Shown one piece after another: positions 92-22,485 of a stretch of 37,248 bases of DNA (positions are counted from its first letter, which is position 1; each line of letters opens with the position of its first letter). The notes below the pieces were generated by a model. It was given only the letters and a program-made list of their open reading frames with translations, was not told where the DNA came from and searched no databases. This DNA is from Wenzhouxiangella sp. GTDB taxonomy: Bacteria > Pseudomonadota > Gammaproteobacteria > Xanthomonadales > Wenzhouxiangellaceae. The position numbers were made by a program, and so were the translations under genes. The stretch lies in assembly GCA_007135935.1 (NCBI GenBank), contig SLIA01000253.1, positions 1 through 37,248 on the forward strand, written 5' to 3'.

Positions 92-126
92 TTTCACCCT
101 TCACCTTTCACCTTTTGCCTTTCACC
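92..126. repeat. Degenerate heptamer array at the DUF1295 3' end
   Basis: Five consecutive 7-base units read TTTCACC, CTTCACC, TTTCACC, TTTTGCC, TTTCACC. The array covers the stop codon and last few codons of the minus-strand DUF1295 gene, so its C-terminal residues (VKGKR) are encoded by repeat sequence. Bases 1-91 hold no gene that I can support. Confidence 0.75.
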
Positions 127-896
127 GCTTTTTTCCACGGCCAGGGGAAAAAAGCCGACGTCGTTCGCTGGTACTCCCGATACGCCTCGCCGCGCGATTT
201 CAGCGCCTGTTTTTCGGTATAGGGAATGCCGCTGAGTCGATACAGGAAAACCAGCATCACCACCGGGGCCAGCCAGGCCAGCCAGGCGTTGGGTGCGCCG
301 ATGGCGACCAGCGGGTAGCTGAACCAGTGCAGCCATTCGAAGAAGTAATTGGGGTGGCGTGAGTAGCGCCACAGGCCGACAGTGCAGACCTTGCCGCGGT
401 TGTCGGGATCAGACTTGAAGTTGGCAAGTTGCCGGTCGGCAATCGATTCGCCGGCCAGGCTGGCGAACCACACGGCCACGCCGGCAATCACCCAGCCCGA
501 CAGGGTCGGCGAAGGGTCGTGGGCCACCACCCAGGCCGGCAGGGCAAACAGCCAGGCGATTACGGCCTGGACGATGAAAAAGAAGAACAGAAACGACTGC
601 TGGCGACGGCCGAAGTGCTCGCGCATGGCGCGATAGCGGCCATCCTCGTTCGTCTCGGCCGCCAGGCGCGTGACCAGGTGTTGCGTGAGACGAAACGACC
701 AGGTACCGGCCAGCAGCACGACCAGGATGCGCTTTTCCAGCGCACCATCACCGACCACTGCCCAGGCCAGCGCCTGCAGGCCGATCAGGGCCGCCCAGGC
801 CGCGTCGACCCAGTCCGCGCGGCCCGAACGCCGCTGCCACAGCCACAGCGCGATCATGGTGGCAAGACAGAAGAAGAAAGCGATCAGGAGTTGCAT
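108..896 (-). CDS. DUF1295 domain membrane protein
   Basis: A 262-residue integral membrane protein with about six hydrophobic segments. The C-terminal half carries the DUF1295 / steroid 5-alpha-reductase-like signature: GLWRYSRHPNYFFEW around residues 174-188, then IPYTEKQALKSRGEAYREYQ near the end. Family members sit in the inner membrane and resemble NADPH-dependent lipid or steroid reductases and isoprenylcysteine methyltransferases; the substrate here is unknown. The start at 896 gives an immediate N-terminal membrane helix (MQLLIAFFFCLATMIALWLW), but no clear Shine-Dalgarno sequence precedes it. The last codons fall within a heptamer array, so the tail is probably not conserved. The gene stands alone. 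Confidence 0.85.
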   Translation of the reverse strand: MQLLIAFFFCLATMIALWLWQRRSGRADWVDAAWAALIGLQALAWAVVGDGALEKRILVVLLAGTWSFRLTQHLVTRLAAETNEDGRYRAMREHFGRRQQSFLFFFFIVQAVIAWLFALPAWVVAHDPSPTLSGWVIAGVAVWFASLAGESIADRQLANFKSDPDNRGKVCTVGLWRYSRHPNYFFEWLHWFSYPLVAIGAPNAWLAWLAPVVMLVFLYRLSGIPYTEKQALKSRGEAYREYQRTTSAFFPWPWKKAVKGKR

Positions 897-1099
897 CGAG
901 ATCGCGGCTGGTCCGAATCATTCATGAACCTGCGTGATGAGCGCGCAGGGCATTGTCCGTACAGGGCGTTTTTCGATGGCGCGGCGTATCGGGCCATACC
1001 ACCGACTGAAAAGAATTTCCGGTGCGAACGACAGACCAGCGAAGGTGCGCGCAACTTCATGTATCATTCGGGCAGGTGAATCATTGCCCATGATTTTAG
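897..1099. other. Intergenic stretch without a supported gene
   Basis: About 200 bases between the DUF1295 start and the terminator of the small sigma-54 gene. Short open frames exist on the minus strand (for example from an ATG at 1091) but none has a convincing ribosome binding site or recognisable product. It presumably carries the DUF1295 promoter, which I could not identify. Confidence 0.4.
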
Positions 1100-1102
1100 C
1101 GG

Positions 1103-1133
1103 AAAAACGAACGCCCACCGTGAAGGCGGGCGT
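1103..1133 (-). terminator. Intrinsic terminator of the small sigma-54 gene
   Basis: Positions 1111-1119 (ACGCCCACC) pair with 1125-1133 (GGCGGGCGT) around a 5-base loop, with one mismatch. Read on the minus strand, the stem is followed by TCGTTTTT (1110-1103), the usual T-run of a factor-independent terminator. It closes the transcript starting near 1440. Confidence 0.7.
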
Positions 1134-1139
1134 CGATTG

Positions 1140-1160
1140 TCAACCGGCGGTTTCGGTTGA
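1140..1160 (-). other. Hairpin in the 3' part of the small transcript
   Basis: TCAACCG at 1140-1146 is repeated as its exact reverse complement CGGTTGA at 1154-1160, separated by 7 bases. A further imperfect hairpin lies at 1219-1239 (ACACCCGCC against GGCAGGTGC). With the terminator, these give the untranslated 3' region three stem-loops in about 130 bases. Confidence 0.5.
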
Positions 1161-1253
1161 CGGATCAGGTGTCGATTATTGCTGACACCACGGGTTCCCC
1201 TTCCCATGTTCGGGGCGAACACCCGCCCTCGGCAGGTGCTCGGGGCCGAAGTA

Positions 1254-1412
1254 TCAGTCGGTCGCGTGGAGGGTTTCGCTGGCTTCCAGGCTGCGCAGCC
1301 ACTCGACCACGACTTCGTCGGCCAGAAGGCTTTCGAATTCGCTGTCGTCTACGGGCTGGTCGACTTGCAGGTCGGGCCCTTCGCTGACACTGATGAGATT
1401 GAGTTCGGCCAT
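1254..1412 (-). CDS. 52-residue acidic protein under sigma-54 control, unknown function
   Basis: The frame runs from ATG at 1412 to TGA at 1254 and encodes 52 residues beginning MAELNLISVSEGPDLQ and ending SLEASETLHATD. The product is strongly acidic, has no cysteine, no membrane helix and no signal peptide. A near-consensus sigma-54 promoter (1451-1466) predicts a start site about 28 bases upstream of the ATG, with a weak purine-rich element (GAGAACAGA) in between, and an intrinsic terminator follows at 1103-1133. Promoter, frame and terminator together argue for a real gene although it matches no family I know. It could be a regulatory or precursor peptide, or the RNA itself may be the product; no modifying enzymes lie nearby. 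Confidence 0.6.
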   Translation of the reverse strand: MAELNLISVSEGPDLQVDQPVDDSEFESLLADEVVVEWLRSLEASETLHATD

Positions 1413-1450
1413 TGTTCTGTTCTCGGTTGTGTTGTCTTCGGTAGAAGCAA

Positions 1451-1466
1451 TGCAGGAATCGTGCCA
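1451..1466 (-). promoter_or_regulatory. Sigma-54 promoter of the 52-residue gene
   Basis: Minus-strand reading TGGCACGATTCCTGCA matches the RpoN consensus TGGCACG-N4-TTGCW at every position except one (CTGC for TTGC), with the invariant GG and GC in correct spacing. The predicted start is near 1440, 28 bases before the ATG. Confidence 0.75.
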
Positions 1467-1532
1467 AGGCGAGTGATTTCACGGTAGGAAGGGGGCTGCA
1501 ACGCGAATGACCGGAGTCCACGCCCCGTGGAA

Positions 1533-1559
1533 GTGACACAAATCGTCAGTTCGGTGACA
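1533..1559. promoter_or_regulatory. Possible enhancer-binding-protein site
   Basis: Two direct copies of GTGACA start 21 bases apart (1533 and 1554), with a GTCA half-site between them at 1545-1548. This yields two overlapping dyads, TGAC-N7-GTCA and GTCA-N6-TGAC. The cluster lies about 95-120 bases upstream of the predicted sigma-54 start, the usual place for an activator site. The regulator is unknown; this is inference. Confidence 0.35.
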
Positions 1560-1623
1560 GCCTGCGTCGCCTCCGGTCGCGTTTCTGGGGCACAATGTGT
1601 CCCCCTTTCAGACCACCTCCGCC

Positions 1624-2523
1624 ATGCCAGCCGCCCACTTCCTGCTGCTGATGTTCATCTGCCTGATCTGGGCGGGCAATTTCATTGCCGCGGCCTGGGC
1701 GGTACAGGCCATGGAGCCGGTCACCTTCACGGTGGTGCGGTTCGCGCTGGTGCTGCTGCTGTTGCTGCCGTTGTTGCGCATTCCGGCGCGCCGGCAGTGG
1801 ACGTTGCTGATCGCCTGCTGCTGGACCATGGGCGCGGTCCACTTCGGGCTGGTGTTCTTCGCCCTGGGCCGCTCGGCCGACGTCTCCTCGATTGCGCTGC
1901 TGATGCAGGTCTACATTCCCATGTCGACCGTACTGGCGGTACTGGTGCTGGGCGAGCGCATTGGCTGGCGGACCACGACCGGCATCCTGGTTTCCTTCGG
2001 CGGCGTGCTGGTAATGGGGCTGGACCCGCTGGTACTGGCGCAGCTCGATGTCCTGTTGCTGGTGCTGGTCTCGGCCCTGTCGCTGGCCACCGGCACCATC
2101 CTGATGCGCCGGCTGGAAGGCATCAGCGTGCTCAATTTCCAGGCCTGGAATGCCCTGCTGTCGATCGTGCCGCTGTCATTGCTGGCATTGTGGCTGGAAA
2201 ATCCACTGCACGGCATTCCGGCCACCCTGGAAAAACCGGATGTCTGGTTGGCGGTGACCTACTCGGCCGTGGGCGCCTCGATCATCGGCCATGGCGGTTT
2301 CTACTGGCTGATCCAGCGCCACGAGGTCAATCGCATCACCCCCTACCTGCTGCTGGTGCCGGTGCTGGCAGTCCTGCTGGGGATCGTGTTCTGGGGCGAC
2401 CGGCCCGGGCCGCGACTGATCGGCGGCGGCTCGCTGGTGCTGGCCGGCGTGCTGTGGATCACCCTGCGTGCGCGCTGGCGCCGCAAGCCGGTCCGGCCCC
2501 GGGCCGCCCCGCCGCCGGCCTGA
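1624..2523 (+). CDS. EamA family (DMT) transporter
   Basis: A 299-residue protein made almost entirely of hydrophobic segments, with about ten predicted helices in two homologous halves, as in the drug/metabolite transporter superfamily. The start MPAAHFLLLMFICLIWAGNF and the GLVFFALGRSADVSSIALLMQ region are typical of EamA proteins that export amino acids or metabolites; the substrate cannot be read from sequence. A GTG at 1597 is in frame and has GGGG upstream, which would add nine residues; I prefer the ATG at 1624 because it places the first helix at the usual distance from the N-terminus. It is divergent from the small sigma-54 gene. Confidence 0.85.
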   Translation: MPAAHFLLLMFICLIWAGNFIAAAWAVQAMEPVTFTVVRFALVLLLLLPLLRIPARRQWTLLIACCWTMGAVHFGLVFFALGRSADVSSIALLMQVYIPMSTVLAVLVLGERIGWRTTTGILVSFGGVLVMGLDPLVLAQLDVLLLVLVSALSLATGTILMRRLEGISVLNFQAWNALLSIVPLSLLALWLENPLHGIPATLEKPDVWLAVTYSAVGASIIGHGGFYWLIQRHEVNRITPYLLLVPVLAVLLGIVFWGDRPGPRLIGGGSLVLAGVLWITLRARWRRKPVRPRAAPPPA

Positions 2524-2570
2524 TCTCCCGGGTTCAGAACGTATTCAGGGTGGGCAGGGACAATACCCCC

Positions 2571-2951
2571 ATGAAGGCAAGCTATCTGATACTGGTCTGG
2601 TTGATGCTGGTCCCGTTCGCGGCCTCGGCACAGCCCGGGCCACCCCCAGCGCCACCCGGCGGCAATCCGGATCCCTATTACCGGCACTATCAGCACGAGC
2701 ACCCGCAACATCGCCTGGCGCACTGGTACGCTGGCGAATCCATGCGCCAGAACGAGGATGCACGGCGCATGATGTGCGGCTTTTCCGGCCAGCGCTGGGC
2801 GCTGGACTGGGACATGCACTACCGCTGGGCGCTGCGCGCCAACCCCAATCGGGTCTACCGCGAAGTCGAAGAACGCGACCGCCACCTCGCCCGCTGCCGC
2901 TCCAGCAAGCTCCGCGAACACCGCCGCCCGCCACGCGGGCGACCCTACTGA
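2571..2951 (+). CDS. Small secreted protein, unknown
   Basis: A 126-residue protein with a clear signal peptide (residues 1-21, MKASYLILVWLMLVPFAASA then Q). The mature part opens with a proline/glycine stretch (PGPPPAPPGGNPDPYYRHYQ), has two cysteines (in MMCGF and LARCRSS) that could form a disulfide in the periplasm, and ends in an arginine/proline-rich tail. I do not recognise the family. GGGTGGGCAGGG about 15-20 bases upstream is a distant ribosome-binding candidate. It lies 47 bases after the EamA gene and may share its transcript; it converges with the GST gene, ending 8 bases from its stop. Confidence 0.65.
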   Translation: MKASYLILVWLMLVPFAASAQPGPPPAPPGGNPDPYYRHYQHEHPQHRLAHWYAGESMRQNEDARRMMCGFSGQRWALDWDMHYRWALRANPNRVYREVEERDRHLARCRSSKLREHRRPPRGRPY

Positions 2952-2959
2952 ATGCTGAA

Positions 2960-3696: not shown

Positions 3697-3739
<43 letters not shown>

Positions 3740-3782: not shown

Positions 3783-3838
3783 CCCCCAATCCCGTTTACC
3801 CATTCACCCGTTCCCCCGTTAACCCATTAGCCCATCAA
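3783..3838. repeat. Degenerate octamer array, consensus CCCRTTNN
   Basis: Seven 8-base units in strict phase: CCCCCAAT, CCCGTTTA, CCCATTCA, CCCGTTCC, CCCGTTAA, CCCATTAG, CCCATCAA. The same consensus recurs at 22446-22485. No gene occupies 3641-3899. Confidence 0.75.
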
Positions 3839-3859: not shown

Positions 3860-3899
3860 AACGTGTTAACGTACTAACACGTTAATACACTCACACACC
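3860..3899. promoter_or_regulatory. Octamer array with a perfect dyad directly upstream of the his operon
   Basis: Units AACGTGTT, AACGTACT, AACACGTT, AATACACT and CACACACC run with period 8 up to the ATG at 3900. Within them AACGTGTTA (3860-3868) and TAACACGTT (3875-3883) are exact inverted repeats spaced by 6 bases. The dyad could be an operator for the TrpR-like first gene, or simply a by-product of the repeat; the sequence cannot separate the two. No Shine-Dalgarno sequence is visible before 3900. Confidence 0.35.
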
Positions 3900-4214
3900 A
3901 TGAAACACCACGACCCGGAACACGTTCGCGCCAACCGCGCCGCCCGCTCCAGCCTGGCCGAGGCCTTTCTGGCCATGCGCACGGCCGAGGAAATGCGCGC
4001 GCTTCTGAAAGACCTGACCACGCCGGCCGAGCTGGAAGCGCTGGTCGATCGCTGGCGTGTGGTGAAGTTTCTCGAACAGGGGCTGCCATACCGCGAAATT
4101 CATGATCAGACCGGCGTGAGTGTCACCACCATCGGCCGCGTAGCCCGCTTCCTCGAGCAGGGCAACGGCGGCTACCGGCTCGCGCTGGAACGACTCAACA
4201 GTGACGACGAATAA
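3900..4214 (+). CDS. TrpR-like regulator of the YerC/YecD family
   Basis: A 104-residue all-helical protein of the Trp-repressor superfamily. The helix-turn-helix is visible as LPYREIHDQTGVSVTTIGRV (about residues 62-81), preceded by the TTPAELEALVDRWRVVKFLE helix pair. YerC/YecD proteins are small DNA-binding proteins, and position as first gene of the his operon suggests that it controls histidine synthesis, possibly autogenously through the adjacent dyad; that role is inference. Its stop overlaps the hisG start (TAATG), so the two are translationally coupled. Three of the first eight codons are histidine (MKHHDPEH), which could make its translation sensitive to charged tRNA-His. Confidence 0.85.
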   Translation: MKHHDPEHVRANRAARSSLAEAFLAMRTAEEMRALLKDLTTPAELEALVDRWRVVKFLEQGLPYREIHDQTGVSVTTIGRVARFLEQGNGGYRLALERLNSDDE

Positions 4215-5104
4215 TGGACAGACTGCAGATCGCCATCCAGAAATCCGGTCGCCTGGCCGACAAGTCCCTGAGTCTGCTGGAAGGCTCGGGCCTGCAATTC
4301 GCGCGCAGCAAGGACAAGCTGTTCTGGTTCGGTCGCAACCTGCCGGTCGACCTGCTGCTGGTGCGCGACGACGACATCCCGCGTTTGCTCATCGAAAACG
4401 TCTGCCAGCTCGGCATCGTCGGCGAGAACGTGGCCGAGGAAAAGTTGCTGGAAGTGCGCGAAACCAGGCCCGAGGCCCGGCTCGATTCGCTGCTCAGGCT
4501 GGACTTCGGACACTGCCGTCTGAAACTGGCCGTGCCCGAGGACAGCACCATCGACTCGATCCAGGGGCTGGCCGGCGGCCGCCTGGCAACCAGCTACCCG
4601 CAACTGGTCAGGAGCTACCTGGCCGACAACGGCGTCGATGCCGAGGTGGTCACGCTCAACGGTGCGGTCGAAATCGCGCCCAGCCTGGGCACGGCCGATG
4701 CCATCGTCGACCTGGTTTCCACCGGCACCACGCTGCGCGCCAACCACCTCAAGCCCATCTCCGAGGTGCTCGCCAGCCAGGCTGCGCTCTACCGCTGCCC
4801 GGCCAGGCTTGATAACGCCGGCGAAGAACTCATGGCCAAGCTGCTGACCCGCATCCAGGGCGTGCAGCAGGCCGCCGAGAGCAAGTACGTGATGCTGCAC
4901 GCGCCGCGCGCGCGGCTGGCCGAGATCTCGGCCATTCTGCCCGGGGCCGAATCGCCCACCGTGCTGGCACTAGAAGGTCAGGACGACCGCGTTGCCATCC
5001 ACGCCGTGTGCACCGAGCAAGTGTTCTGGGAGCATCTCGAGGAACTCAAGGCCGCCGGCGCTTCGGCCGTGCTGGTACTGCCGGTGGAGAAGATGCTGGC
5101 ATGA
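4214..5104 (+). CDS. hisG: ATP phosphoribosyltransferase (long form)
   Basis: Catalyses the first committed step of histidine synthesis, joining ATP and PRPP to give phosphoribosyl-ATP. At 296 residues it is the long, homohexameric type with a C-terminal regulatory domain (about residues 215-296), which in this class gives feedback inhibition by histidine. The start MDRLQIAIQKSGRLADKS, the ATSYPQLVRSYL segment and the PRPP-binding region DAIVDLVSTGTTLRANHL are family hallmarks. The start overlaps the regulator's stop by one base, and its own stop overlaps the hisD start (ATGA). Cytosolic. Confidence 0.97.
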   Translation: MDRLQIAIQKSGRLADKSLSLLEGSGLQFARSKDKLFWFGRNLPVDLLLVRDDDIPRLLIENVCQLGIVGENVAEEKLLEVRETRPEARLDSLLRLDFGHCRLKLAVPEDSTIDSIQGLAGGRLATSYPQLVRSYLADNGVDAEVVTLNGAVEIAPSLGTADAIVDLVSTGTTLRANHLKPISEVLASQAALYRCPARLDNAGEELMAKLLTRIQGVQQAAESKYVMLHAPRARLAEISAILPGAESPTVLALEGQDDRVAIHAVCTEQVFWEHLEELKAAGASAVLVLPVEKMLA

Positions 5105-6411
5105 AGATCATCGCGCTCGACACCCTCGATACCGGCGAGCGGGCCCGGCTGCTGGCGCGCCCGGAAATGGAAACCGGCGAGGAACTACGCGCGACCGTGG
5201 CAGACATCATCGCCACGGTGCGCACCGGCGGCGACAGGGCCGTGATCGAACATGGCCGGCGCTTCGATGCCTGCCCGCCCGAGTCCCTGCTGGCCACGGC
5301 CGAGGATCTGGACGGTGCTGCCGACGAACTCGACGACGAGCTGATCGCGGCCATCGACACGGCCATGCAGACGGTCGAAACCTTCCACGCCGCCGCCAGA
5401 CCGCGCGACCAGATCGTGGAAACCGCGCCGGGCGTGACCTGCCAGGCGCGCTGGCGAGCGATCGAACCGGTCGGCCTGTACGTGCCTGCCGGCAGCGCGC
5501 CCCTACCATCGACCGCCATCATGCTGGCCGTGCCCGCCCGTCTGGCCGGTTGCCGGGACATCGTGCTGGCCACGCCACCGGGCTCCGACGGTCGCGCCGA
5601 TGCCGCCGTGCGCTACATTGCCCATCGCCTGAATATCGACACGGTGCTGGTCGCCGGCGGCGCCCAGGCCGTGGCCGCCATGGCCTGCGGCACCGAATCG
5701 GTGCCGAAAGTGGCCAAGATTTTTGGCCCCGGCAATCGTTTCGTCACCGAGGCCAAGCGCCAGATGGCCGAATCGGCCAGCGGCGCGGCCATGGACCTGC
5801 CGGCCGGCCCGTCGGAGGTCATGGTGATTGCCGACGAGTCGGCCGAAGCCGAGTTCGTTGCCATGGACCTGCTCAGCCAGGCCGAGCACGGCCCCGACTC
5901 GCAGGTCTTTCTGGTCACCGATTCCGACCGCATCGCCCGCGAAACCGCCTTCGCCCTGGAAGCGCTGCTGCCCAGGTTGCCGCGGGCCGAAATCGCGCGC
6001 ACCGCGCTGGCCTCCGGCGCCATCTTGCTGACCGGGGATCTCGAGCAGGCCGTCAGCGTAGCCAACGAGTATGCGCCCGAGCACCTGATCATCGCCACGC
6101 GCGATCCCGACCGCCTGTGCCGCGACATCACCAGCGCCGGATCGGTGTTTCTGGGGCACTACACCCCCGAGGCGCTGGGCGACTACATTTCCGGCACCAA
6201 CCACGTGCTGCCCACCGGCGGCTGGGCACGTTCGATCGCCGGTCTGTCGATCACCGACTTCATGCGGCGCATGACGGTACAGCAGGCCACCCCCGAGGGC
6301 CTCAAGACACTCGGCCCGGCGGGCGCCCGGCTGGCCGCCCACGAGGGCCTGGACGCCCACCGCCTGGCCATCACCCTGCGCCTGGACCGGCTGGCCGCGG
6401 AGGGACAATGA
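5101..6411 (+). CDS. hisD: Histidinol dehydrogenase
   Basis: A 436-residue zinc- and NAD-dependent enzyme that oxidises histidinol to histidine in two steps, the last of the pathway. Recognisable segments are PVGLYVPAGSAPLPSTAIML, VAGGAQAVAAMACGT, KIFGPGNRFVTEAK, DLPAGPSEVMVIAD, SQAEHGPDSQVFLVT and GSVFLGHYTPEALGDY, with the zinc/catalytic glutamate and histidines within them. I chose the ATG at 5101 because it forms the ATGA overlap with hisG and starts the conserved fold; a longer in-frame start lies inside hisG. The stop overlaps the hisC start. Confidence 0.97.
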   Translation: MKIIALDTLDTGERARLLARPEMETGEELRATVADIIATVRTGGDRAVIEHGRRFDACPPESLLATAEDLDGAADELDDELIAAIDTAMQTVETFHAAARPRDQIVETAPGVTCQARWRAIEPVGLYVPAGSAPLPSTAIMLAVPARLAGCRDIVLATPPGSDGRADAAVRYIAHRLNIDTVLVAGGAQAVAAMACGTESVPKVAKIFGPGNRFVTEAKRQMAESASGAAMDLPAGPSEVMVIADESAEAEFVAMDLLSQAEHGPDSQVFLVTDSDRIARETAFALEALLPRLPRAEIARTALASGAILLTGDLEQAVSVANEYAPEHLIIATRDPDRLCRDITSAGSVFLGHYTPEALGDYISGTNHVLPTGGWARSIAGLSITDFMRRMTVQQATPEGLKTLGPAGARLAAHEGLDAHRLAITLRLDRLAAEGQ

Positions 6412-7469
6412 ACATCCAGTCCCTGGCACGAGCGGAAATCCTGGCGCTGGAACCCTACGCCTCGGCCCGGCGCCTGGCCGACAGCGCCGGGGTGCTGCTC
6501 AATGCCAACGAGAACCCCTTTGCGCCCAACGCCAACGGTCCGGCGCTCAACCGCTACCCCGACCCGCAGCCGGACGCACTCAAGGCCGCGCTGGCCTGCG
6601 AGTATGGCGTTGCCGCCGACCGGCTGCTGGTCACGCGCGGCAGCGACGAGGGCATCGACCTTTTGGTGCGCGTGTTCTGCCGGCCGGGCAAAGACCGCGT
6701 GCTCATCTGCCCGCCGTGCTTCGGCATGTACGCGCTCAGCGCGCGGGTGCAGGGCGCGGCGGTGACCGAGGTGGCGCTGATCGAAACCGAGGCGGGATTC
6801 ATGGCCGATTTCGACGCCATCGCCCAGTCGCCGCCGTGCAAGCTGTATTTCCTGTGCACGCCCAACAATCCAACCGGCAACGAACTGGCTGCCGACGACA
6901 TTCTCGCGCTGGCCGAGCACGTGGCCGGCCACGGCCTGGTGGTGGTCGACGAGGCTTACGTGGAATTCGGCGAGCGGCCTTCCCTGGCCCGCCGCGCCGG
7001 AGAAATTGCCAACCTGGTCGTGCTGCGCACCCTGTCGAAAGCCTTCGGCCTGGCCGGCTGCCGCATCGGTTCGGTGATTGCCGCACCGGAGGTCATCGGG
7101 CTGCTGCGGCGCATCATCGCACCCTACCCTCTGCCCACCCCGGCGGTGACCGCGGCAATGCAGGCGCTGTCGCCGTCGGCGCGCAAGCGCAGGCAAAAGC
7201 AGCTCGCCTTGCTCACCAACGAAAAGCCCGGCCTGGTCGCCGCCCTGGGCAACCACCCGGCCATCGTCGATGTCTGGCCGGGTAAGGCCAACTTCGTGCT
7301 GGTCCGCACCGTGCCGGGCGCCGGCCTGGTCGAGGCGGCCGCGCTTGCCGGTATTCGCCTGCGCGACCAGTCGGCCCAGCCCGGCCTGGCCGATTGCGTG
7401 CGCATCACCCTGGGCACCCCCGACGAGAATCGTCGCCTCATCGCCTTCCTCAAGGAGTGGCAACCATGA
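6408..7469 (+). CDS. hisC: Histidinol-phosphate aminotransferase
   Basis: A 353-residue fold-type I PLP enzyme that transfers the amino group of glutamate to imidazole acetol phosphate. The sequence shows LLNANENPFAPN near the N-terminus, RGSDEGIDLL, the CTPNNPTGN loop, VVVDEAYVEF with the PLP-contacting aspartate and tyrosine, and the Schiff-base lysine in RTLSKAFGLAGCRIG. The start forms an ATGA overlap with hisD; the stop overlaps hisB in the same way. Coupled translation should keep HisD, HisC and HisB in step. Confidence 0.96.
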   Translation: MNIQSLARAEILALEPYASARRLADSAGVLLNANENPFAPNANGPALNRYPDPQPDALKAALACEYGVAADRLLVTRGSDEGIDLLVRVFCRPGKDRVLICPPCFGMYALSARVQGAAVTEVALIETEAGFMADFDAIAQSPPCKLYFLCTPNNPTGNELAADDILALAEHVAGHGLVVVDEAYVEFGERPSLARRAGEIANLVVLRTLSKAFGLAGCRIGSVIAAPEVIGLLRRIIAPYPLPTPAVTAAMQALSPSARKRRQKQLALLTNEKPGLVAALGNHPAIVDVWPGKANFVLVRTVPGAGLVEAAALAGIRLRDQSAQPGLADCVRITLGTPDENRRLIAFLKEWQP

Positions 7470-8533
7470 GTCAACGCAAGATCCTGTTTGTCGACCGCGA
7501 CGGCTGCCTGATCGAAGAACCGGCCGACGAACAAGTCGATTCCTTCGAGAAATTCGCCCTGATGCCCGGTGTCATCCCGGCGCTCCTCAAACTCAAGGCC
7601 GCCGGCTACCGTTTCGTGCTGGTCTCCAACCAGGACGGCCTGGGCACCGAGGCCTTCCCGCAAGAACAGTTCGAAGGCCCGCACCGGCTGATGCAACAGA
7701 TACTGAGCTCACAGGGCATCACCTTCGAGGCCGAGCACATCGACCCCACCCTGCCCGAGGAGAATGCGCCGACGCGCAAGCCAGGCGTGGGCATGCTGCT
7801 CGATTACCTGGCCGACCCCAAGCTCGATCGTGAACGCTCGGCGGTGGTCGGTGACCGCGAAACCGACCTGGCGCTGGCGCGCAACATGGGCCTGCCCGGC
7901 TATCGCGTCGGCCCGGAGGGCGGGAGCTGGGACGAGGTGGCACGCGCCATTATCGATAACGACCGCACCGGCAAGGTTTCGCGCACCACGCGCGAAACCG
8001 CCATCGACGTCAGCGTCAATCTCGACCAGGGCAAGCCGGTCGTCATCTCCACCGGCATCGGCTTTTTCGATCACATGCTCGAACAGATCGCCGCGCATGG
8101 CGGCTTTGCGCTGGAGCTGACCTGTACCGGCGATCTCGAGGTCGACGAACACCACACCGTCGAAGACTGCGCGCTCGCGCTCGGCAGCGCCATCGACCAG
8201 GCCCTGTCGGATCGCTCAGGCATCGGCCGCTACGGTTTCACCCTGCCCATGGACGAGGCGCTGGCGCAGGTGGCGATCGACCTGTCCGGTCGCCCGGCCT
8301 GCGTGATCAACGGCGAATTCCCGCGCGAATCGGTTGGCGGTCTTCACACCGAGATGGTCACCCACTTCTTCGCCTCGCTGGCGCAGACCCTGCGCGCCGC
8401 CATCCATATCGACGTGCGCGGCGAGAACACCCACCACATGGTCGAGGCCTGCTTCAAGGGCGTCGGCCGGGCACTTAGACCGGCGCTTGCACGCACCGAT
8501 TCCGGCACGCCGTCGACCAAGGGAATGTTGTGA
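7466..8533 (+). CDS. hisB: Bifunctional histidinol-phosphatase / imidazoleglycerol-phosphate dehydratase
   Basis: A 355-residue fusion typical of gammaproteobacteria. Residues 1 to about 165 form the HAD-type histidinol-phosphatase, with the DRDGCLIEEP catalytic loop (nucleophile and acid aspartates) and VVGDRETDLALARNMG. The rest is the manganese-dependent dehydratase, with STGIGFFDHMLEQIAAHGGF, the EVDEHHTVEDCALALGSAI metal-binding motif and ENTHHMVEACFKGVGRAL. It carries out the sixth and eighth steps of the pathway. The start overlaps hisC (ATGA); the chain of coupling ends here, and a folded spacer of about 225 bases follows before hisH. Confidence 0.97.
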   Translation: MSQRKILFVDRDGCLIEEPADEQVDSFEKFALMPGVIPALLKLKAAGYRFVLVSNQDGLGTEAFPQEQFEGPHRLMQQILSSQGITFEAEHIDPTLPEENAPTRKPGVGMLLDYLADPKLDRERSAVVGDRETDLALARNMGLPGYRVGPEGGSWDEVARAIIDNDRTGKVSRTTRETAIDVSVNLDQGKPVVISTGIGFFDHMLEQIAAHGGFALELTCTGDLEVDEHHTVEDCALALGSAIDQALSDRSGIGRYGFTLPMDEALAQVAIDLSGRPACVINGEFPRESVGGLHTEMVTHFFASLAQTLRAAIHIDVRGENTHHMVEACFKGVGRALRPALARTDSGTPSTKGML

Positions 8534-8540
8534 TGAGAGC

Positions 8541-8722
8541 AAATTCGAAATTCGAAATAGCAAATCCGAAACAAGCACGAAGCACGAAACACGAAACACG
8601 AAACGGCCGACGTGCTGGCACACCTGGCAGGCGACACGACAGCACCGCTGCGGCCCTTGCGAGTTTCGAATTTCGGATTTCGAATTTGTTTCGCATTTGG
8701 TGCTTCGGATTTCGAGTTTTTC
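8541..8722. repeat. Heptamer-periodic inverted-repeat element between hisB and hisH
   Basis: The left arm (8541-8603) is nine in-phase heptamers: AAATTCG, AAATTCG, AAATAGC, AAATCCG, AAACAAG, CACGAAG, then CACGAAA three times. The right arm (8660-8722) is again heptameric and largely complementary: CGAGTTT, CGAATTT, CGGATTT, CGAATTT, GTTTCGC, ATTTGGT, GCTTCGG, ATTTCGA, GTTTTTC. Between them, GTGCTG at 8612-8617 and CAGCAC at 8640-8645 pair. The arms are far poorer in GC than the neighbouring genes. No coding frame is convincing here. Confidence 0.8.
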
Positions 8723-8759
8723 CCTGCACCCAAATCAATCACCTCAAAAAGTCCGTGCC

Positions 8760-9353
8760 ATGACCATCTCCATCATCGATTCCGGCGGCGCCAATATCGG
8801 GTCGGTGGTTCATGCGCTGGGTCGGCTCGGTGTCGAGAGCGTGCTCACGCGCGATGCCGAGGAGATTCGTGCCGCGTCGCATGTCATTCTGCCGGGTGTG
8901 GGCGTGGCCGCCAGCGCCATGGCGGCACTGCGCGAGGCGAAGCTGGTCGAGGTGATCCGCTCGCTGACCCAGCCGGTGCTCGGCATCTGCCTGGGTTTGC
9001 AGTTGCTCTACGAGTCGTCCGACGAGGGCGGGGTCGAATGCCTGGGCATTCTGCCCGGGCGCGTTAAGCGGCTTGCCGGCGGAGAGGGACTGAGACTACC
9101 GCACATGGGCTGGAACCGGTTAAGCTGGCGGCAAGACGATCCACTCGCCCGGGGCCTGGAGGGCAGCGAATGGTTCTATTTCGTCCACAGCTTTGCCGCA
9201 CCCACCGACCATGCCGTGGCCACGGCCGCGCACGGCCAGACATTTGCCGCCGTGGTCCGCCACGGCAACTTCGCCGCCTGCCAGTTCCACCCGGAGAAAT
9301 CGGCCGGCCCCGGCGCCCGAATCCTGCGCAATTTTCTCGGTCAACCCCGATGA
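8760..9353 (+). CDS. hisH: Imidazole glycerol phosphate synthase, glutaminase subunit
   Basis: A 197-residue class I glutamine amidotransferase that supplies ammonia to HisF. The nucleophilic cysteine is in the PVLGICLGLQLLYE elbow, and the catalytic His-Glu pair is in FAACQFHPEKSAG near the C-terminus; PHMGWNRL and FYFVHSFAA are further family segments. The start MTISIIDSGGANIGSV fits the family, although no clear Shine-Dalgarno sequence precedes it. Unlike the genes before it, hisH is not coupled to its upstream neighbour, and a second repeat spacer separates it from hisA. Confidence 0.96.
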   Translation: MTISIIDSGGANIGSVVHALGRLGVESVLTRDAEEIRAASHVILPGVGVAASAMAALREAKLVEVIRSLTQPVLGICLGLQLLYESSDEGGVECLGILPGRVKRLAGGEGLRLPHMGWNRLSWRQDDPLARGLEGSEWFYFVHSFAAPTDHAVATAAHGQTFAAVVRHGNFAACQFHPEKSAGPGARILRNFLGQPR

Positions 9354-9392
9354 GCAGCCCAATTTGCCAACTTTCAGTCTTCCTAAAGAATG

Positions 9393-9480
9393 AACCACAG
9401 AGGGCACAGAGTTCACAGAGAAGATCAATGATAAATCTTTTCTCTGTGTGCTGTGTGCTCTGCGCTCTCTGTGGTTAAGG
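9393..9480. repeat. Nonamer-periodic inverted repeat between hisH and hisA
   Basis: The left arm has CACAGAGGG, CACAGAGTT and CACAGAGAA (9396-9422) in strict period 9. The right arm (9442-9476) reads CTCTGTGTG, CTGTGTGCT, CTGCGCTCT, CTGTGGTT. The outer ten bases AACCACAGAG and CTCTGTGGTT pair perfectly. The final bases run into TTAAGGAG, so the distal edge of the element abuts or supplies the ribosome binding site of hisA. Confidence 0.8.
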
Positions 9481-9489
9481 AGAATCATC

Positions 9490-10224
9490 ATGATTGTCAT
9501 TCCGGCCATTGACCTGCGAGGCGGTCGCGTGGTGCGCCTGGAGCAGGGCGATTACGGGCGCGAACACCGCTACACGATCGATCCGCTGGCACTGGCCGAG
9601 CGCTACGCCACGGCTGGCGCCCGGCTCATCCACGTGGTCGATCTCGACAGCGCGCGATCCGGCGGCGAGGCCAATCTCGAAGTCATCGAACAGATCTGTA
9701 GCGAGATCGACGTGCCGGTGCAGACCGGCGGCGGCGTGCGCTCGCGCGAGGATCTCGACCGGCGGCTAGAAGCCGGCGCGAAGCGTGTGGTCATCGGCAG
9801 CCTGTGCGTGACCGAGACCGACACCGTCGGCCAGTGGCTGGACGAACTGGGGCCCGACTCCATCGTCGCCGGGCTGGATGTGACCCGCGGCATGGACGGC
9901 GGCTGGATGCCGCGCATCGCCGGCTGGACCCGCGAGGGCCGCGACGATCTGTTCACCCTGCTCGACCGGCTGATGAAGCACGGCCTGCAACACCTGCTGT
10001 GCACCGATATCGAGCGTGACGGCATGTTTTCCGGCCCCTCGCTGGGGCTGTACCGCGAAATCTGCGACCGCCAGCCGAAGCTCAAGGTGCAGGCCTCCGG
10101 CGGCATCGGATCGGGCGCCGACATCAAGTCGGTTTCGACCACGCGGGTCAGCGGCTGCATTATCGGCCGCGCCCTGCTCGAGAATCGCGTGTCCGTCACC
10201 GAGATTGCCCGATGGTCGCCGTAA
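9490..10224 (+). CDS. hisA: Phosphoribosylformimino-AICAR-phosphate isomerase (HisA)
   Basis: A 244-residue (beta/alpha)8 barrel that converts ProFAR to PRFAR, the fourth step. The two catalytic aspartates are visible in [14 protein letters not shown] at the N-terminus and [15 protein letters not shown] in mid-protein; both phosphate-binding half-barrel motifs (VQTGGGVRS and [13 protein letters not shown]) are present. AAGGAG 8 bases before the ATG fixes the start at 9490. The 3' end overlaps hisF by 13 bases. Confidence 0.96.
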
Positions 10225-10979
10225 GAATCATTCCCTGCCTGGACGTTCGCGACGGCCGGGTGGTCAAGGGCGTGCGTTTCCGCAACCACCGCGACATGGG
10301 CGATATCGTGGCCCTGGCCGAACGCTACCGCGATGCCGGGGCCGACGAACTGGTGTTCTACGACATCACCGCCAGTCCGCAAAAGCGCAGTGTCGATGTC
10401 GAATGGGTGGAGCGGGTGGCCGCGGCCATCGACATTCCCTTCTGTGTCGCCGGCGGCATTCGCGATGTGGCCACGGCCCGGGCCGTACTGCACGCCGGGG
10501 CCGACAAGATCTCGGTCAATTCCCCGGCACTCGAACGCCCCGATCTGGTCACCGAGCTGGCCGACGCCTTCGGTTCGCAATGCGTGGTCGTCGGTATCGA
10601 CTCCATCCGCGACGGCGATGAATTGCGCGTTCGCCAGTACACCGGCGATCCCGACAACATGGTCGACCCGCGCCGCGACACCGCCAGCTGGGTCGACGAA
10701 GTCCAGCGCCTGGGCGCCGGCGAAATCGTGCTCAACTGCATGGACGCCGATGGCGTGAGAACCGGCTACGACATCGACCAGCTCGCCGCCATGCGCAAGC
10801 GCTGCCGGGTGCCGCTGATCGCTTCCGGCGGCGCCGGCGCGCCCGAGCACTTCCTGGAGGTGTTTCAACAAGCCGATGTCGACGGTGCCCTGGCCGCCAC
10901 CGTATTCCATTCCGGCCAGATCGCCATCCCCGACCTCAAGGCCTGGCTGAGCGACCATGACGTGCAGGTGCGGGTTTGA
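10212..10979 (+). CDS. hisF: Imidazole glycerol phosphate synthase, cyclase subunit
   Basis: A 255-residue barrel homologous to HisA that uses ammonia from HisH to make imidazole glycerol phosphate and AICAR. The catalytic aspartates lie in [19 protein letters not shown] and [14 protein letters not shown]; phosphate-binding motifs are FCVAGGIRD and [13 protein letters not shown]. It starts inside hisA (13-base overlap), so the two barrels are coupled. A third folded spacer separates it from hisIE. Confidence 0.97.
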
Positions 10980-10992
10980 GCTTCAATCAATT

Positions 10993-11055
10993 AACACGAA
11001 GGACACGAAGAAGGCACGAAGGTAACCAGATCATTTCTTCGTGATCCTCCTGTTA
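10993..11055. repeat. Imperfect hairpin of CACGAAG words between hisF and hisIE
   Basis: The left side has AACACGAAG, GACACGAAG and AAGGCACGAAG (10993-11021), a CACGAAG word at spacings of 9 and 11 bases. The right side (11035-11055) contains TTCTTCGTG-A-TCCT, complementary to AGGA-CACGAAGAA apart from a one-base bulge, and then TGTTA against TAACA. No coding frame lies in this spacer. Confidence 0.7.
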
Positions 11056-11075
11056 CATCTCTTGCGAGCAATTGA

Positions 11076-11696
11076 ATGAACACCAAACTGGAACCAACAA
11101 GCGAACTGGACTGGGACAAGGGCGACGGGCTGCTGCCGGCCATCGTGCAGGATGCCGATGACGGACGCGTGCTGATGCTCGGCTACATGAATGCCGAGGC
11201 GCTGGACAAGACCCGCCGGACCGGGCAGGTCACGTTCTACTCGCGCAGCAAGCAGCGCCTGTGGACCAAGGGCGAGACTTCCGGCAACGTGCTCGAACTC
11301 ATCGACCTGGCCGCCGACTGCGACCGCGACACCCTGCTTATCCAGGCCCGGCCGGCCGGACCGGCCTGCCATACCGGCAGCGACACCTGCTTTGGCAACA
11401 CCACCTGGCCCGCGGCCGGATTTCTTGCCCGGCTCGACCGGGTGGTGGCCGCGCGCAGCGGCGCGGATCCCGAATCGAGCTACACCGCCCGGCTGCTGGC
11501 CGAAGGCACAGCGCGCTGTGCTCAGAAAGTGGGGGAGGAAGGGGTGGAAACGGCGCTGGCGGCGGTCAGCGGGGAAGCCTCGTCAATGGACAACGAGGCC
11601 GCCGACCTGCTCTATCACCTGCTGGTCTGCCTGCGCTCGGCAGGCAGTGATCTCGACCGGGTCATGGACGTACTGATCAGGCGGCACACAGGCTGA
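11076..11696 (+). CDS. hisI: Bifunctional phosphoribosyl-AMP cyclohydrolase / phosphoribosyl-ATP pyrophosphatase
   Basis: A 206-residue HisIE fusion for steps two and three. The HisI part (about residues 1-115) shows [31 protein letters not shown] and the metal-binding [10 protein letters not shown]...[12 protein letters not shown] region. The HisE part (about 120-206) shows [20 protein letters not shown] and [15 protein letters not shown], the MazG-like pyrophosphatase helices. It is the last gene of the operon and overlaps the convergent EAL gene by 20 bases, leaving no room for a dedicated terminator. Confidence 0.96.
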
Positions 11697-19541: not shown

Positions 19542-19545
19542 AACG

Positions 19546-19577: not shown

Positions 19578-19595
19578 ATCACTTTTCAGGCAATC

Positions 19596-19886
19596 TTACT
19601 TTTCCTGCATGCGCTCGAGCGCGCGGTCGAGCTTTTCATGCGCTTCGTCACAGCAGCGCTGCGAAGCATCGGCGGCCTGCTGGGCGGCGCGAGCGGCTTC
19701 CATGGCCTGGCGTGCAGCATCGGCTGCTTCCTGGGCGGCCTGCTGGGCCTGCTCGGCGGTCTGGTTGGCCTGCTCGGCCTGCTGCTGGGCGCGCTCCACC
19801 GAAGCGGTGCTGGCGCAGCCAGCCATCAGTGCGATAACGGCAGCGGCCATGAACAGCCGGGTACTGGAAAAAACGTTCTTGCTCAT
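19596..19886 (-). CDS. Alanine-zipper (Lpp/OprI-like) lipoprotein
   Basis: A 96-residue lipoprotein. The signal peptide ends in the lipobox LMAGC (cysteine at about residue 23), and the mature part is one long helix with alanine and glutamine at regular positions (EQANQTAEQAQQAAQEAADA), the pattern of the Lpp/OprI coiled-coil trimer. The C-terminus is KLDRALERMQEK, so it ends in lysine as Lpp does; that residue is the one joined to peptidoglycan in Lpp. I chose the ATG at 19886 because GGAG lies 8 bases upstream; an upstream GTG would overlap that GGAG region. Two adjacent cysteines (QRCCDE) are unusual for the family. Confidence 0.85.
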   Translation of the reverse strand: MSKNVFSSTRLFMAAAVIALMAGCASTASVERAQQQAEQANQTAEQAQQAAQEAADAARQAMEAARAAQQAADASQRCCDEAHEKLDRALERMQEK

Positions 19887-20044
19887 CTTGGTCACTCCAT
19901 CGGTTCAGGGTTGATTATGTCCACTTCCGGTCAGCAAACCGGCGTCGGCACCACCGACGGTCCGGGCCGCGACCGGCCAAATCCGGTTCGCGCCCTCCCC
20001 CCAGCGGGCACAAAGCCGCTTGTTGACACATCTTACAGCAGTTT

Positions 20045-22363
20045 TCACAAATGTGCTGCTGTGCGTTGATGATTATTATCGTCGTCTGATTCCTCGTCTT
20101 CGTCGTCGGCCTCGGCCGGCTCGTCGGGGTCTGTCGAACGACGTTCGCGCGAGTCGATCAGCCCGCGCAGGAGCTGTCGGCTGGTTCGCTCGGACTCCCG
20201 GGCGGGTTCGGCTTCCTCTTCGCCAGGAGGGGCATCGGGCTCTTCGTCTTCGTCGCGCTCGCCCTCTTCCTCGGGCGGGCGCTCCTCCGAGCGCGGTCGG
20301 TCAATGCGGTCAAGCAGCCGTCGTCCGATCTCGTCTCGCACCGTGCGCTCGGCAATGCCGGCCAGGTCGACGCTGACCACCGGCGCGGTGACCGGCCCGG
20401 CAATGGCCAGCGGAATGGTCCCGCCGGTGGCCGAACGCAGGCGCGAGGGCAGACGTTCGAGCAGGCTTTCTCCCAGTTGCAGATCCAGCCGGTAGTCGAC
20501 CTGGTCGGCCGCGAAATCAAGGCGGCCGGTGCCGCTGGCACCGAAGCCGGCGGCGGTCAGGTTCAGATCCGGCAGGGCGATCACCCCGTCCTCGGCGCGC
20601 AGGCTGCCGCTGAGCGAGCGGAACGGCGTCTGACCGCTGAAAGCCTGGCGCACGTTGCCCAGGCTGGCCACGGTGAGCTCCTGCTCGATCAGCTTTTCCA
20701 GGTCGATGCCGCGCACCGCGCCGTCACTGAGCTGGAACTGGCCACTGCCATCGAGCGAAGCGAGGATGTCGCCCGGGCTCAGGCCGCGGAAACGAAGATC
20801 GAGCGACAGGTCGCCGCTGCCGGCCACCGGTGCATGTTCGCTGAACAGGCCGGCGATCTGCTCGACCAGCACGCCGGAAAGCCGGGGCTGAAGGTGAACC
20901 GCCGGCGGTACCTCGTTGAAATCCACTTCGGCCAGCCCCTCGAAACCGCCACCGAACAGGCGCGCCTCGAGGGGTTCCAGACGCAACACGCTGTCGGCCA
21001 GGCGAGAGCCGGCGCGCACCTGCGTCAGGACCATGCCTTCGGCCAGGATGAGTTCATCCAGGCGCAGGTCGGCACGAAAATCGACCATCGCCAGGGGCGC
21101 GAAATCCGGCGCTTCGCCATCGGCATCCGGCCGCTCGTCCTCACCGCCCAGGGCCGCAAGTGCGCGCAGGTCCAGGCGCTCGCCGCTGACATCCAGCCGC
21201 CCCCGGATCGGATCGGTCAGCACCAGCTCGGCGCTCAGGTCCAGGCGCTGGTCGTCGAGGCGGAACTCGGCACCGGGCATGGCCATTCGAACCGGGTCGT
21301 CGAGGGTGACCGACAGCTCGTCGGTCAACACCAGGCCCAGCTGCATGTCGGGCAGGTCGACACGACCCTCGGCACCGGCCACGACCATGCGGGGCGGATC
21401 GTCCAGGGTCAGGGTCAGCGCGTCGGTCAGCAGCAGTTCGGCCTGGAGATCGGGCAGGTCGAGACGGATCTCGGCACCGGCCAGGGCCACGCGCGCCGGA
21501 TCGTCCAGGGTCAGGGTCAGCGCATCGGTCAGCGCCAGCGCCATGTGCATGTCGGGCAGGTCGAGGTCGAGATCCAGGCGGGGCACTTCGATAGCGAGGA
21601 TGTCACCGCTCAGATCGATCCACGCCTCGCCACTTGCGCGGGCTTGAGCCTCGGCGGCCGGGAGAGACAGGCTGGCCTGCCAGTCACCCAGGTCGATTCG
21701 CGACAGGTTGGCGGCCACGCGCAGGGTGCCGGAGAAATCCAGGTCCTCGAGCACGGTCTCGCCGTCGTCGATGACGCGCCCGCGCAGGGCCATGTCGATA
21801 TCGCGGTCGGCACGGAACGGTGCCATTTCGAAGGAGTCGACGACTACTTCCTGGCGCGTACCGGCCGCCAGATCCATCAGCACCACCGACACCGAGCGCA
21901 AGCCGATGGGGCCTGTCTGCAACCCGGACAGATCGGGCTCGCCGGGCTCGGCCGGATCCGGGTCGTCGGCAAACAGGCCTTCCAGGTTGCTGCGCCCCTG
22001 ACGATCGGTCACCAGGGTGAACGTGGCCTGCTCGAAATCGATGGCGCCGATCTCCAGGTCGCCGCGAATCAGCGGCCAGAGCCGGATGCCGGCACGGGCA
22101 ATGCCGATCTCGGCCAGGGGCGGAGCGTCCTCGAAATCCGGCGGATTGCCGACCGAGGCATCGCGGATATCGAACGCCAGCCAGGGAAACAGCCGCAACT
22201 CGATGGGTCCGTCCAGGCGCACCTCGCGACCGATCTGCTCCGAGGCGCGCTCGGCAATCTGTTCGCGGTAGTTGTCGGGATCGATGAACACGACCGCGGC
22301 AACCGCGGCCAGAACGATCACCACGATCAGGGCGATCAGAACCAACAGGATACGACGCAACAT
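20045..22363 (-). CDS. AsmA family protein
   Basis: A 772-residue envelope protein with one N-terminal membrane helix (about residues 4-27) and a large periplasmic part. DPDNYREQIAERASEQIGRE and LRLFPWLAFDIRDASVGNPP are AsmA N-terminal signatures; the C-terminal AsmA_2 region (SGDLSLDLRFRGLSPGDILA to DYRLDLQLGESLLE) is also present. AsmA-like proteins are thought to help move phospholipids to the outer membrane. Residues about 270-375 contain three copies of a 34-residue repeat (LTDALTLTLDDPARVALAGA and so on), nearly identical in DNA. The last 90 residues are a low-complexity acidic tail rich in E, D, P and R. Confidence 0.88.
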   Translation of the reverse strand: MLRRILLVLIALIVVIVLAAVAAVVFIDPDNYREQIAERASEQIGREVRLDGPIELRLFPWLAFDIRDASVGNPPDFEDAPPLAEIGIARAGIRLWPLIRGDLEIGAIDFEQATFTLVTDRQGRSNLEGLFADDPDPAEPGEPDLSGLQTGPIGLRSVSVVLMDLAAGTRQEVVVDSFEMAPFRADRDIDMALRGRVIDDGETVLEDLDFSGTLRVAANLSRIDLGDWQASLSLPAAEAQARASGEAWIDLSGDILAIEVPRLDLDLDLPDMHMALALTDALTLTLDDPARVALAGAEIRLDLPDLQAELLLTDALTLTLDDPPRMVVAGAEGRVDLPDMQLGLVLTDELSVTLDDPVRMAMPGAEFRLDDQRLDLSAELVLTDPIRGRLDVSGERLDLRALAALGGEDERPDADGEAPDFAPLAMVDFRADLRLDELILAEGMVLTQVRAGSRLADSVLRLEPLEARLFGGGFEGLAEVDFNEVPPAVHLQPRLSGVLVEQIAGLFSEHAPVAGSGDLSLDLRFRGLSPGDILASLDGSGQFQLSDGAVRGIDLEKLIEQELTVASLGNVRQAFSGQTPFRSLSGSLRAEDGVIALPDLNLTAAGFGASGTGRLDFAADQVDYRLDLQLGESLLERLPSRLRSATGGTIPLAIAGPVTAPVVSVDLAGIAERTVRDEIGRRLLDRIDRPRSEERPPEEEGERDEDEEPDAPPGEEEAEPARESERTSRQLLRGLIDSRERRSTDPDEPAEADDEDEESDDDNNHQRTAAHL

Positions 22364-22445
22364 CAGCCAGGCCTCCAGGCAATCTCCACCCCGAAAGCTT
22401 AGCAGCCCAGCATCACTTCAGGCACATTTCATCGCCCAATCTACA

Positions 22446-22485
22446 CCCGTTAACCCGTTAACCCATTTTCCCGTTTGCCCCTCAC
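22446..22485. repeat. Degenerate octamer array, consensus CCCRTTNN
   Basis: Units CCCGTTAA, CCCGTTAA, CCCATTTT, CCCGTTTG and CCCCTCAC run in period 8 and share their consensus with 3783-3838. The array lies between the AsmA gene start and the stop of the next minus-strand gene, which ends inside it. Confidence 0.7.

Follow-up and report, generated by a model that had tools for sequence, protein, structure and literature searches.

What maintains, between the genes of a bacterium, short tandem words whose period is exact while their letters change? The question is raised by a 37,248-nucleotide (nt) stretch of Wenzhouxiangella sp. (contig SLIA01000253.1 of assembly GCA_007135935.1), here called the window, meaning the whole stretch of DNA that was analysed. 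It is contig C51 of genome G000 (3.2 Mb, 325 contigs, 85% complete) and carries such arrays at junctions of a histidine (his) operon. An original prediction, made from the letters alone, listed eight intergenic arrays of period 7, 8 or 9 in it. The intergenic arrays are real, and we tentatively favour, at a little short of an even chance, two overlaid processes: two-armed intergenic elements that would be exchanged as alleles, and slippage of runs of 7- and 8-nt units. A proposed recombination tract at one his junction is given reduced weight, which lowers our confidence in this explanation.

Arrays and facing pairs in the window

For each listed site, the yardstick was the best-scoring position found in 500 dinucleotide shuffles of the intergenic DNA of the window (25 segments, 4,356 bases), or in 200 shuffles when any lag from 6 to 10 was allowed. 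Over lags 6-10, six of the eight sites score above this shuffled DNA. No shuffle reached 92-126 (22/28 at lag 7), 3697-3738 (35/35), 3783-3838 (33/48 at lag 8), 22446-22485 (23/32) or 8541-8603 (43/56), and 8660-8722 (32/56) has p 0.0 at its own lag and p 0.005 at any lag. As originally claimed, unit length is constant while letters vary, and the same words occur at unlinked sites; intergenic placement holds only in part for 92-126, which runs into the end of an open reading frame (ORF; Table 1).

Two pairs of arrays face each other on opposite strands, an arrangement that the original prediction did not note: 8541-8603 with 8660-8722, in the hisB/hisH gap, and 9393-9422 with 9439-9476, between hisH and hisA. 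Folding energies are -77.6 kcal/mol (z -5.0) for the hisB/hisH gap and -44.2 kcal/mol (z -6.4) for 9390-9480, which spans the second facing pair. Taken by itself, the period-9 site 9396-9422 (14/18) is not convincing, since it stands out at its own lag only (p 0.022, against p 0.38 at any lag), and the right arm opposite it, tested as 9441-9475, gives p 0.058 and p 0.515; the core of 9396-9422 recurs in other genomes.

Enrichment across the genus

Genes were called with our own small codon-usage caller. The G000 sample comprised contigs with a GC content above 0.60 (461 kb) and gaps of at most 600 bp, with 20 shuffles for each lag score; these limits were chosen since low-GC contigs and missed genes blurred the autocorrelation, and the count thus excludes 89 kb of contigs at or below GC 0.60, which contain 3 arrays. 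The genome-wide check proposed in the original prediction came out in its favour, with z 16.7 at lag 7, 16.7 at lag 8 and 5.6 at lag 9. Several further lags show smaller rises (z up to 7.5 for lags 4-6 and 11-15, and 12.7 at lag 16), and at lag 10 the signal drops below the shuffles (z -3.6). With a local detector we found 60 arrays in the 45 kb between genes, where a shuffle gives 0.2, and 10 arrays in the 416 kb of coding DNA, with periods of 7 (31 arrays), 8 (27), 10 and 11 (one each). Enrichment and intergenic placement are direct observations, repeated in G019, a one-contig congener, where 400 kb gave z 16.2 at lag 7 and 44 arrays vs 0.4 per shuffle, with 4 in 359 kb of coding DNA.

The G019 result bears on the possibility that the arrays are an assembly or binning artefact of a fragmented metagenome-assembled genome. 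Contigs L003, L006, L173, L181 and L186 do end in arrays, and ten sampled contigs have an aberrant GC content; long repeats are, however, expected at contig ends, and the arrays of a single-contig genome exclude an artefact as the main cause, leaving it a negligible chance. The ten contigs (L004, L007, L018, L020, L180, L184, L188, L428, L438 and L439), with GC 0.32-0.48 vs ~0.64 elsewhere in G000, are possibly foreign to the bin.

Array content varies among relatives. In G028, a second one-contig congener, 400 kb gave z -0.1 at lag 7 and 2 arrays vs 0.2 per shuffle; its whole genome holds 28 matches to the AGG phase pattern (AGGNNNN x4 followed by AGG), so that it is array-poor only in relative terms. 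A 50-kb stretch of E. coli K-12 contains no arrays. The AGG phase pattern is matched in 38 of 61 relatives, G000 counted in, with 147 and 196 matches in G000 against 52 and 28 for the reversed pattern, an unclean null because arrays of other phase match it. A wide CRCNRAD pattern is matched in 49/61 relatives above a coding-DNA background (its controls are not empty), and we do not rely on it.

Neighbouring arrays mostly face each other, by 7 against 1 in G000 and 6 against 2 in G019 (4 of the 8 pairs of G019 lie in one region). Convergent-gene regions account for 10/24 of the G000 regions with arrays vs 18/176 of those without (p 0.0003). The word classes of G000 (A, AGG heptamers; B, AAACGACC; C, CAACGAAC) follow one order in same-strand pairs (A-B 7/7, B-C 7/7, A-C 8/8), and the opposite-strand pairs are one A-C and two A-Z, over 9 clusters in all. 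The class patterns were written after the arrays had been seen, pairs within one cluster are not independent, and a hold-out of 20 further G000 contigs (176 kb) contained no multi-class cluster; the fixed order is a lead only.

Paired period-9 arms: held cores, free spacers

The arrays fall into two types. Type I consists of facing arms of period 9, mostly of three units, in which a 7-nt core is held and a 2-nt spacer is free. Arms with exactly three units number 37/37 in genome G141, 201/207 in viral contigs, 30/32 in Verrucomicrobiota, 2/3 in G143, 4/4 in the sisters of the window and 1/1 in the window itself; the counts take arms of at least three units from loci picked by a three-unit pattern, so that counts below three are excluded by design and counts above three are not.

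The spacer separates slippage, which would give like spacers, from selection or templating, which would leave them free. Within one arm, the two spacers agree in 0/37 cases vs 4.2 expected (G141), 33/207 vs 31.9 (viral contigs), 6/32 vs 4.3 (Verrucomicrobiota) and 4/23 vs 5.4 (G211, a verrucomicrobial genome). Agreement is at chance level in all four sets, and slippage is not supported for these arms; here the original argument that slippage cannot keep phase while diversifying the unit stands. Facing arms agree in their cores (35/42 in G141, 25/36 in viral contigs, 22/27 in Verrucomicrobiota, 4/6 in the sisters), while their spacers agree in 3/28 cases vs 3.7 expected (G141) and 1/24 vs 2.7 (viral contigs), so that copying of an arm from its facing arm is not supported in these two sets. 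Since the core is held and the spacer free in the larger sets, neither slippage nor arm-to-arm copying explains type I. A further factor is required for the paired arms, be it selection, a reading protein or mobile copying.

Arrays of 7- and 8-nt units

Type II arrays are those of 7- and 8-nt units, and their copy number is broad, at 2.6-18.6 in G000 and 2.6-17 in G019. Where an array has 5 or more units and shows some variation, neighbouring units differ by 0.75 letters and units further apart by 1.47 in G000 (16 arrays, 6 individually at p<0.05), and by 0.73 and 1.39 in G019 (15 arrays, 6 individually at p<0.05). This likeness of neighbours is measured directly, and some arrays switch word midway. 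Type II arrays thus behave as ordinary slippage arrays (simple sequence repeats), with broad copy number and adjacent units most alike, a combination that fits whole-unit slippage plus point mutation, which keeps phase. Slippage accounts well for these arrays, with slippage presumably serving as the expansion step, and the original argument against it is not supported for this type.

MutS repair does not deal with loops as large as 7-8 nt, and their escape from it would favour a unit of this size. MutS1 is present in 53/61 relatives and in 45/45 of good quality; loss of MutS as a cause is rejected, as such loss does not follow array content. G000 has a second, partial MutS match, on contig C111.

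Turnover of words at orthologous his junctions

We compared the his junctions of 20 sister loci, with the hisH/hisA gap readable in 19 (L137 excluded). As the original prediction anticipated, relatives carry different arrays, or none, at the same junction, and this turnover is seen directly. By eye, the hisB/hisH gap has arrays in 11/20 loci (L133-L136, L141, L142, L145, L149 and L150, with short single GGTTCAG arrays in L144 and L148), built of CGCAGAG, CGCAAAG, CACCAAT-like, AAATTCG, CACCGAA or GGTTCAG words. Arrays occupy the hisH/hisA gap in 8/19 loci, as CACAGATGAA in L134, L136 and L142 and as CACCGAA or decayed forms in L133, L135, L138, L149 and L150. The arms of the three CACAGATGAA carriers differ at 0-2 of ~35 positions, and their loops do not align. 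In L150 a CGCAAAG pair is nested within a CGCAGAG pair, which suggests successive additions. Between hisF and hisIE, L145 (genome G034) holds ~1 kb of apparently coding sequence.

Different words occur even in sister species. A midpoint-rooted FastTree tree, built from eight His proteins in 21 genomes, places G003 as sister to G010 (0.995), in a clade shared with G017, G025, G011 and G028; at hisH/hisA, G003 has CACAGATGAA and G010 has CACCGAA. Over most of hisH and hisA, G003 is nearer G010 or G017. In hisH, 23/26 informative sites side with G010/G017, with none in the last 75 bases; in hisA, the first five (4-68) group with G025/G011, and the seven that follow group with G010/G017. This pattern suggests, short of proof, a short imported tract over the hisH/hisA junction.

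The junctions also bear on another explanation, in which each site would be a separate insertion of a mobile element resembling a miniature inverted-repeat transposable element, its facing arms serving as end repeats read by a transposase in trans. The hisB/hisH gaps with paired or larger arrays are long (109-551 bp) and the nine without arrays short (-4 to 40 bp), which such insertions would produce; the nesting in L150 would fit as well, as would the arrays of G211 that lie within longer similar repeats. The loops of otherwise similar elements nevertheless do not align, no target duplication was seen (there was no systematic search for them), and the transposase family tested does not follow the arrays. 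We therefore regard mobile insertion as unlikely.

That family is Y1_Tnp (PF01797), found in 32/61 relatives, with six matches in G019 and none in G000 (85% complete), G003, G013 or G026; it is rejected as the array agent. The same fate befalls reverse transcriptase, which the original prediction suggested as an associated enzyme and which might write repeats from a template, as reported for DRT10 in the accessible part of PMC12632851. RVT_1 gave one match in G000 and nine in G019; against this, it was found in 19/61 relatives, with none in the array-rich G003, G013, G014 and G026 (G003, G013 and G026 being 94-99% complete) and two matches in the array-poor G028. Its presence does not follow array content, and writing by such an enzyme appears very improbable (DRT10 itself was not searched as a family). 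Among the three families searched (RVT_1, Y1_Tnp and MutS), we found no candidate for a seeding agent.

Period-9 cores in distant groups

Period-9 cores are common to two phyla. The pattern CRCARAKNN x3 is matched in 14 of 143 evenly drawn Gammaproteobacteria genomes including G000 (13/142 others), against 1 match in 1 genome for the reversed control. Within the phylum of G204, 30 of 115 genomes match as well, counting G204 itself (29/114 further), with 3 control matches in 3 genomes. G204, assigned to Verrucomicrobiota because its locus L095 is titled Opitutia, was the only one to match among six genomes reached through loci, and the further scan covered its phylum. The original prediction had named identical arrays in distant genomes, as a sign of a known element, among the results that would speak against it, and for the period-9 cores such recurrence is what we found. 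CACAGAGNN x3 occurs in at least 120 stretches of viral contigs, which may include host DNA, and a plasmid collection gave 2 weak matches, both in Gemmatirosa (E 2e-3 and 8e-3). G211 (Verrucomicrobiota; L403-L422) has 111 forward and 136 reverse period-9 matches; many of its copies, by eye, are embedded in longer similar repeats at many sites, and some adjoin CGCGCAGAGGCGCAGAGG runs. In another family of the order, G043 and G053 have facing period-9 runs of CGCAGAT/CGCGAAT type, 50-280 bp apart, at many sites among the matches listed.

Cores common to two phyla could mean that a protein or an RNA process that reads sequence selects them, with arms arising by selection at many sites; a global DNA-binding protein, such as has been suggested for Geobacter, is one example. 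The held core with its free spacer and the arms that stay alike while loops diverge are also what such a reader would leave. On the other side, no such protein has been identified, the congener G028 is nearly free of arrays in the 400 kb sampled, and several different words occupy the same junction; selection by a reader is in our view improbable. A broader reading, which we consider doubtful though deserving of some weight, combines several of these elements. Arms of period 9 or 10 would form one cross-phylum hairpin class with a restricted vocabulary (cores near CRCNRAD, spacers of two free letters, arms usually of three units), kept and copied into new junctions by a putative sequence-reading protein and exchanged between species as alleles, and the 7/8-nt arrays would be its slippage-expanded relatives.

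A proposed explanation by two overlaid processes

In the two-process explanation that we tentatively favour, the elements would be non-coding and two-armed, each arm a short run of a held core and a free spacer. Because the arms are opposed, a hairpin could form in the cell from RNA or from one strand of DNA, and some constraint presumably acts on the arms. The elements would occupy junctions tolerant of extra DNA, and from relative to relative one would take the place of another as an allele, probably through short tracts of recombination; we propose that such replacement yields different words at one junction. In the 7/8-nt runs, replication slippage by whole units would lengthen and homogenise, and point mutation would diversify; whole-unit steps would keep the phase.

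Several results weigh against this explanation. The case for the proposed tract is built on five sites of hisA, of which three fall inside a four-base span, and sites so close together cannot be counted as independent; over the whole of hisA, 17/53 sites side with G025/G011, other runs included (e.g. hisA 579-594), hisF sites split 16:16 (G017 alone as the first group), and the hisB/hisH flanks of G010 show no such tract. Two-unit arms exist, and the loci were selected for three units; only 92/207 viral arms are distinct; and the spacers of facing arms agree slightly above chance in Verrucomicrobiota (4/18 vs 2.1 expected) and in the sisters (2/4 vs 0.8). The association with convergent genes is not repeated in G019 (6/24 regions with arrays vs 23/161 without, p 0.22), and the sharing of cores between phyla is left unexplained by our analysis.

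Sister species with and without arrays, together with an operon that has different words at its junctions, provide a testable system. Should a protein read the cores, it would be a novel factor at gene junctions in several phyla; should none do so, the arrays would show how much order recombination and slippage alone can yield.

Other features of the window

The genes at 3900-11696, named from similarity and operon order, are a TrpR-like gene followed by hisG, hisD, hisC, hisB, hisH, hisA, hisF and hisIE (Table 1); the closest HisB, among the best 80 loci, is that of Wenzhouxiangella limi (76% identity). The listed site 3860-3891 is rejected as an array (15/24, p 0.26 at its own lag and p 0.86 at any lag). 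The stretch is palindromic and precedes the TrpR-family gene that starts at 3900; by eye a like motif is present in 16/16 sister loci that hold this stretch, lying further upstream in L145; 4 of the 20 loci have no gene start (L141, L148 and L151 lack the gene, and L149 begins inside it). The palindrome is probably the operator of the TrpR-family gene. Three CACGAAG words at the hisF-hisIE junction are irregularly spaced and not significant (p 1.0 vs shuffles). A 102-bp unit at 21254-21565 (~3.1 copies, 75% matches) lies within a minus-strand ORF (20045-22363, 772 aa) and encodes a 34-residue protein repeat. In the window, ARAGORN gave no match and Rfam, at gathering scores, 0 matches.

Table 1. 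Coordinates of arrays, arms and neighbouring genes in the window (TRF, Tandem Repeats Finder)
Feature	Position	Strand	Evidence or remark
Period-7 array, CCTTTCA type	90..126	.	TRF, shuffle test; overlaps 3' end of minus-strand ORF 108-896
Perfect period-7 array (CGGTTTC)6	3697..3739	.	TRF, shuffle test
Degenerate period-8 array CCCRTTNN	3783..3838	.	TRF, shuffle test
Palindromic conserved motif, no array	3860..3891	.	Upstream of TrpR-family gene
hisB	7466..8533	+	Gene 5' of first paired array
Left arm, heptamers AAATTCG / CACGAAA, hisB-hisH junction	8541..8604	+	TRF, shuffle test
Right arm opposite 8541-8604, like heptamers	8660..8722	-	Shuffle test, gap fold z -5.0
hisH	8760..9353	+	Gene flanked by two paired arrays
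Left arm, three CACAGAG cores, period 9, hisH-hisA junction	9393..9422	+	TRF; weak alone vs shuffles
Right arm opposite 9393-9422, degenerate CACAGAG-type cores	9439..9476	-	Fold z -6.4; weak alone vs shuffles
hisA	9490..10224	+	Gene 3' of second paired array
Three CACGAAG words, irregular spacing, hisF-hisIE junction	10992..11023	+	Not significant
Degenerate period-8 array CCCRTTNN	22445..22480	.	TRF, shuffle test

Relation to known systems

REP/REPIN elements, which are associated with RAYT transposases, are short, intergenic and arranged in inverted pairs, as are the elements described here. They are not known to be built of tandem words, whereas ours are, and Y1_Tnp is absent from several array-rich genomes.

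The original prediction knew of no named family with these properties; close relatives have nevertheless been published, the nearest being the paired tandem sites of Geobacter metallireducens (2009) and the GGGAATC repeats of Xanthomonas (2015). We found no common name for such repeats, and no naming of CACAGAG-type words, in a literature search that left subscription journals mostly uncovered and is thus weak evidence of absence. The feature is real and striking, and belongs to a kind that has been described and not named. The comparisons that follow refer to the accessible parts of the papers cited.

In Geobacter metallireducens, multicopy sites consist of 3-5 tandem 7-9-mers, mostly as opposite-strand pairs at variable distance, in classes of four octanucleotides GTTGCTYN, three TCTCCGTS[Y] and five heptanucleotides MTYCTGA; they were proposed as putative IHF/HU sites in that one species (PMC2700814). 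The likeness is close: tandem 7-9-nt units on opposite strands, paired, in many copies per genome, with two pairs in the window. The second Geobacter class appears to be the reverse complement of the CACGGAG-type core, seen 44 times in the arms of viral contigs. Unlike ours, the accessible account compares neither junctions, phyla nor spacers.

Xanthomonas, of the same order as our host, has GGGAATC heptamers, and Nostoc has GGGGA(C/T)T; the repeats are intergenic, degenerate and of broad copy number, with 70-75 inverted pairs per genome, mostly retained at the same gene junction in two species (PMC4692102). That paper leaves the cause unexplained and refers to an earlier account of excess heptamers in bacteria, with slippage of the polymerase among the ideas. 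The Xanthomonas repeats share with ours the intergenic heptamers of broad copy number and the many inverted pairs. They differ in being one word family with G-quadruplex potential and a preference for four units, whereas here there are many words, periods of 7, 8 and 9 (period 8 being common) and exchange of words at a junction. The words of the window and of the G000 sample differ from GGGAATC and GGGANTN.

TAACTGA heptamer arrays are intergenic in Beggiatoaceae, Cyanobacteria and Bacteroidetes (PMC4679880), and are thus, like the present cores, common to distant phyla; unlike them, they have one fixed word, lie mostly directly upstream of start codons and include one indirect repeat only. 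In the P6b element of the Nostoc tRNA-Leu intron, facing 7-nt repeats of class I or II form a stem, and the classes have replaced each other repeatedly under a similar fold (PMC4476775). Here too are hairpins of facing heptamers with replacement of words, although at a single intron site and with two classes. Against the wider background, short tandem repeats are reported not to be enriched on average in bacteria (PMC12699852).

Similar repeats have so far been described one case at a time, in Geobacter, Xanthomonas, Beggiatoaceae and Nostoc, and the comparison suggests one phenomenon with two layers. To these cases the present genus contributes several words and periods, facing arms with free spacers, cores that recur in a second phylum, and an orthologous junction at which sister species differ in their words.

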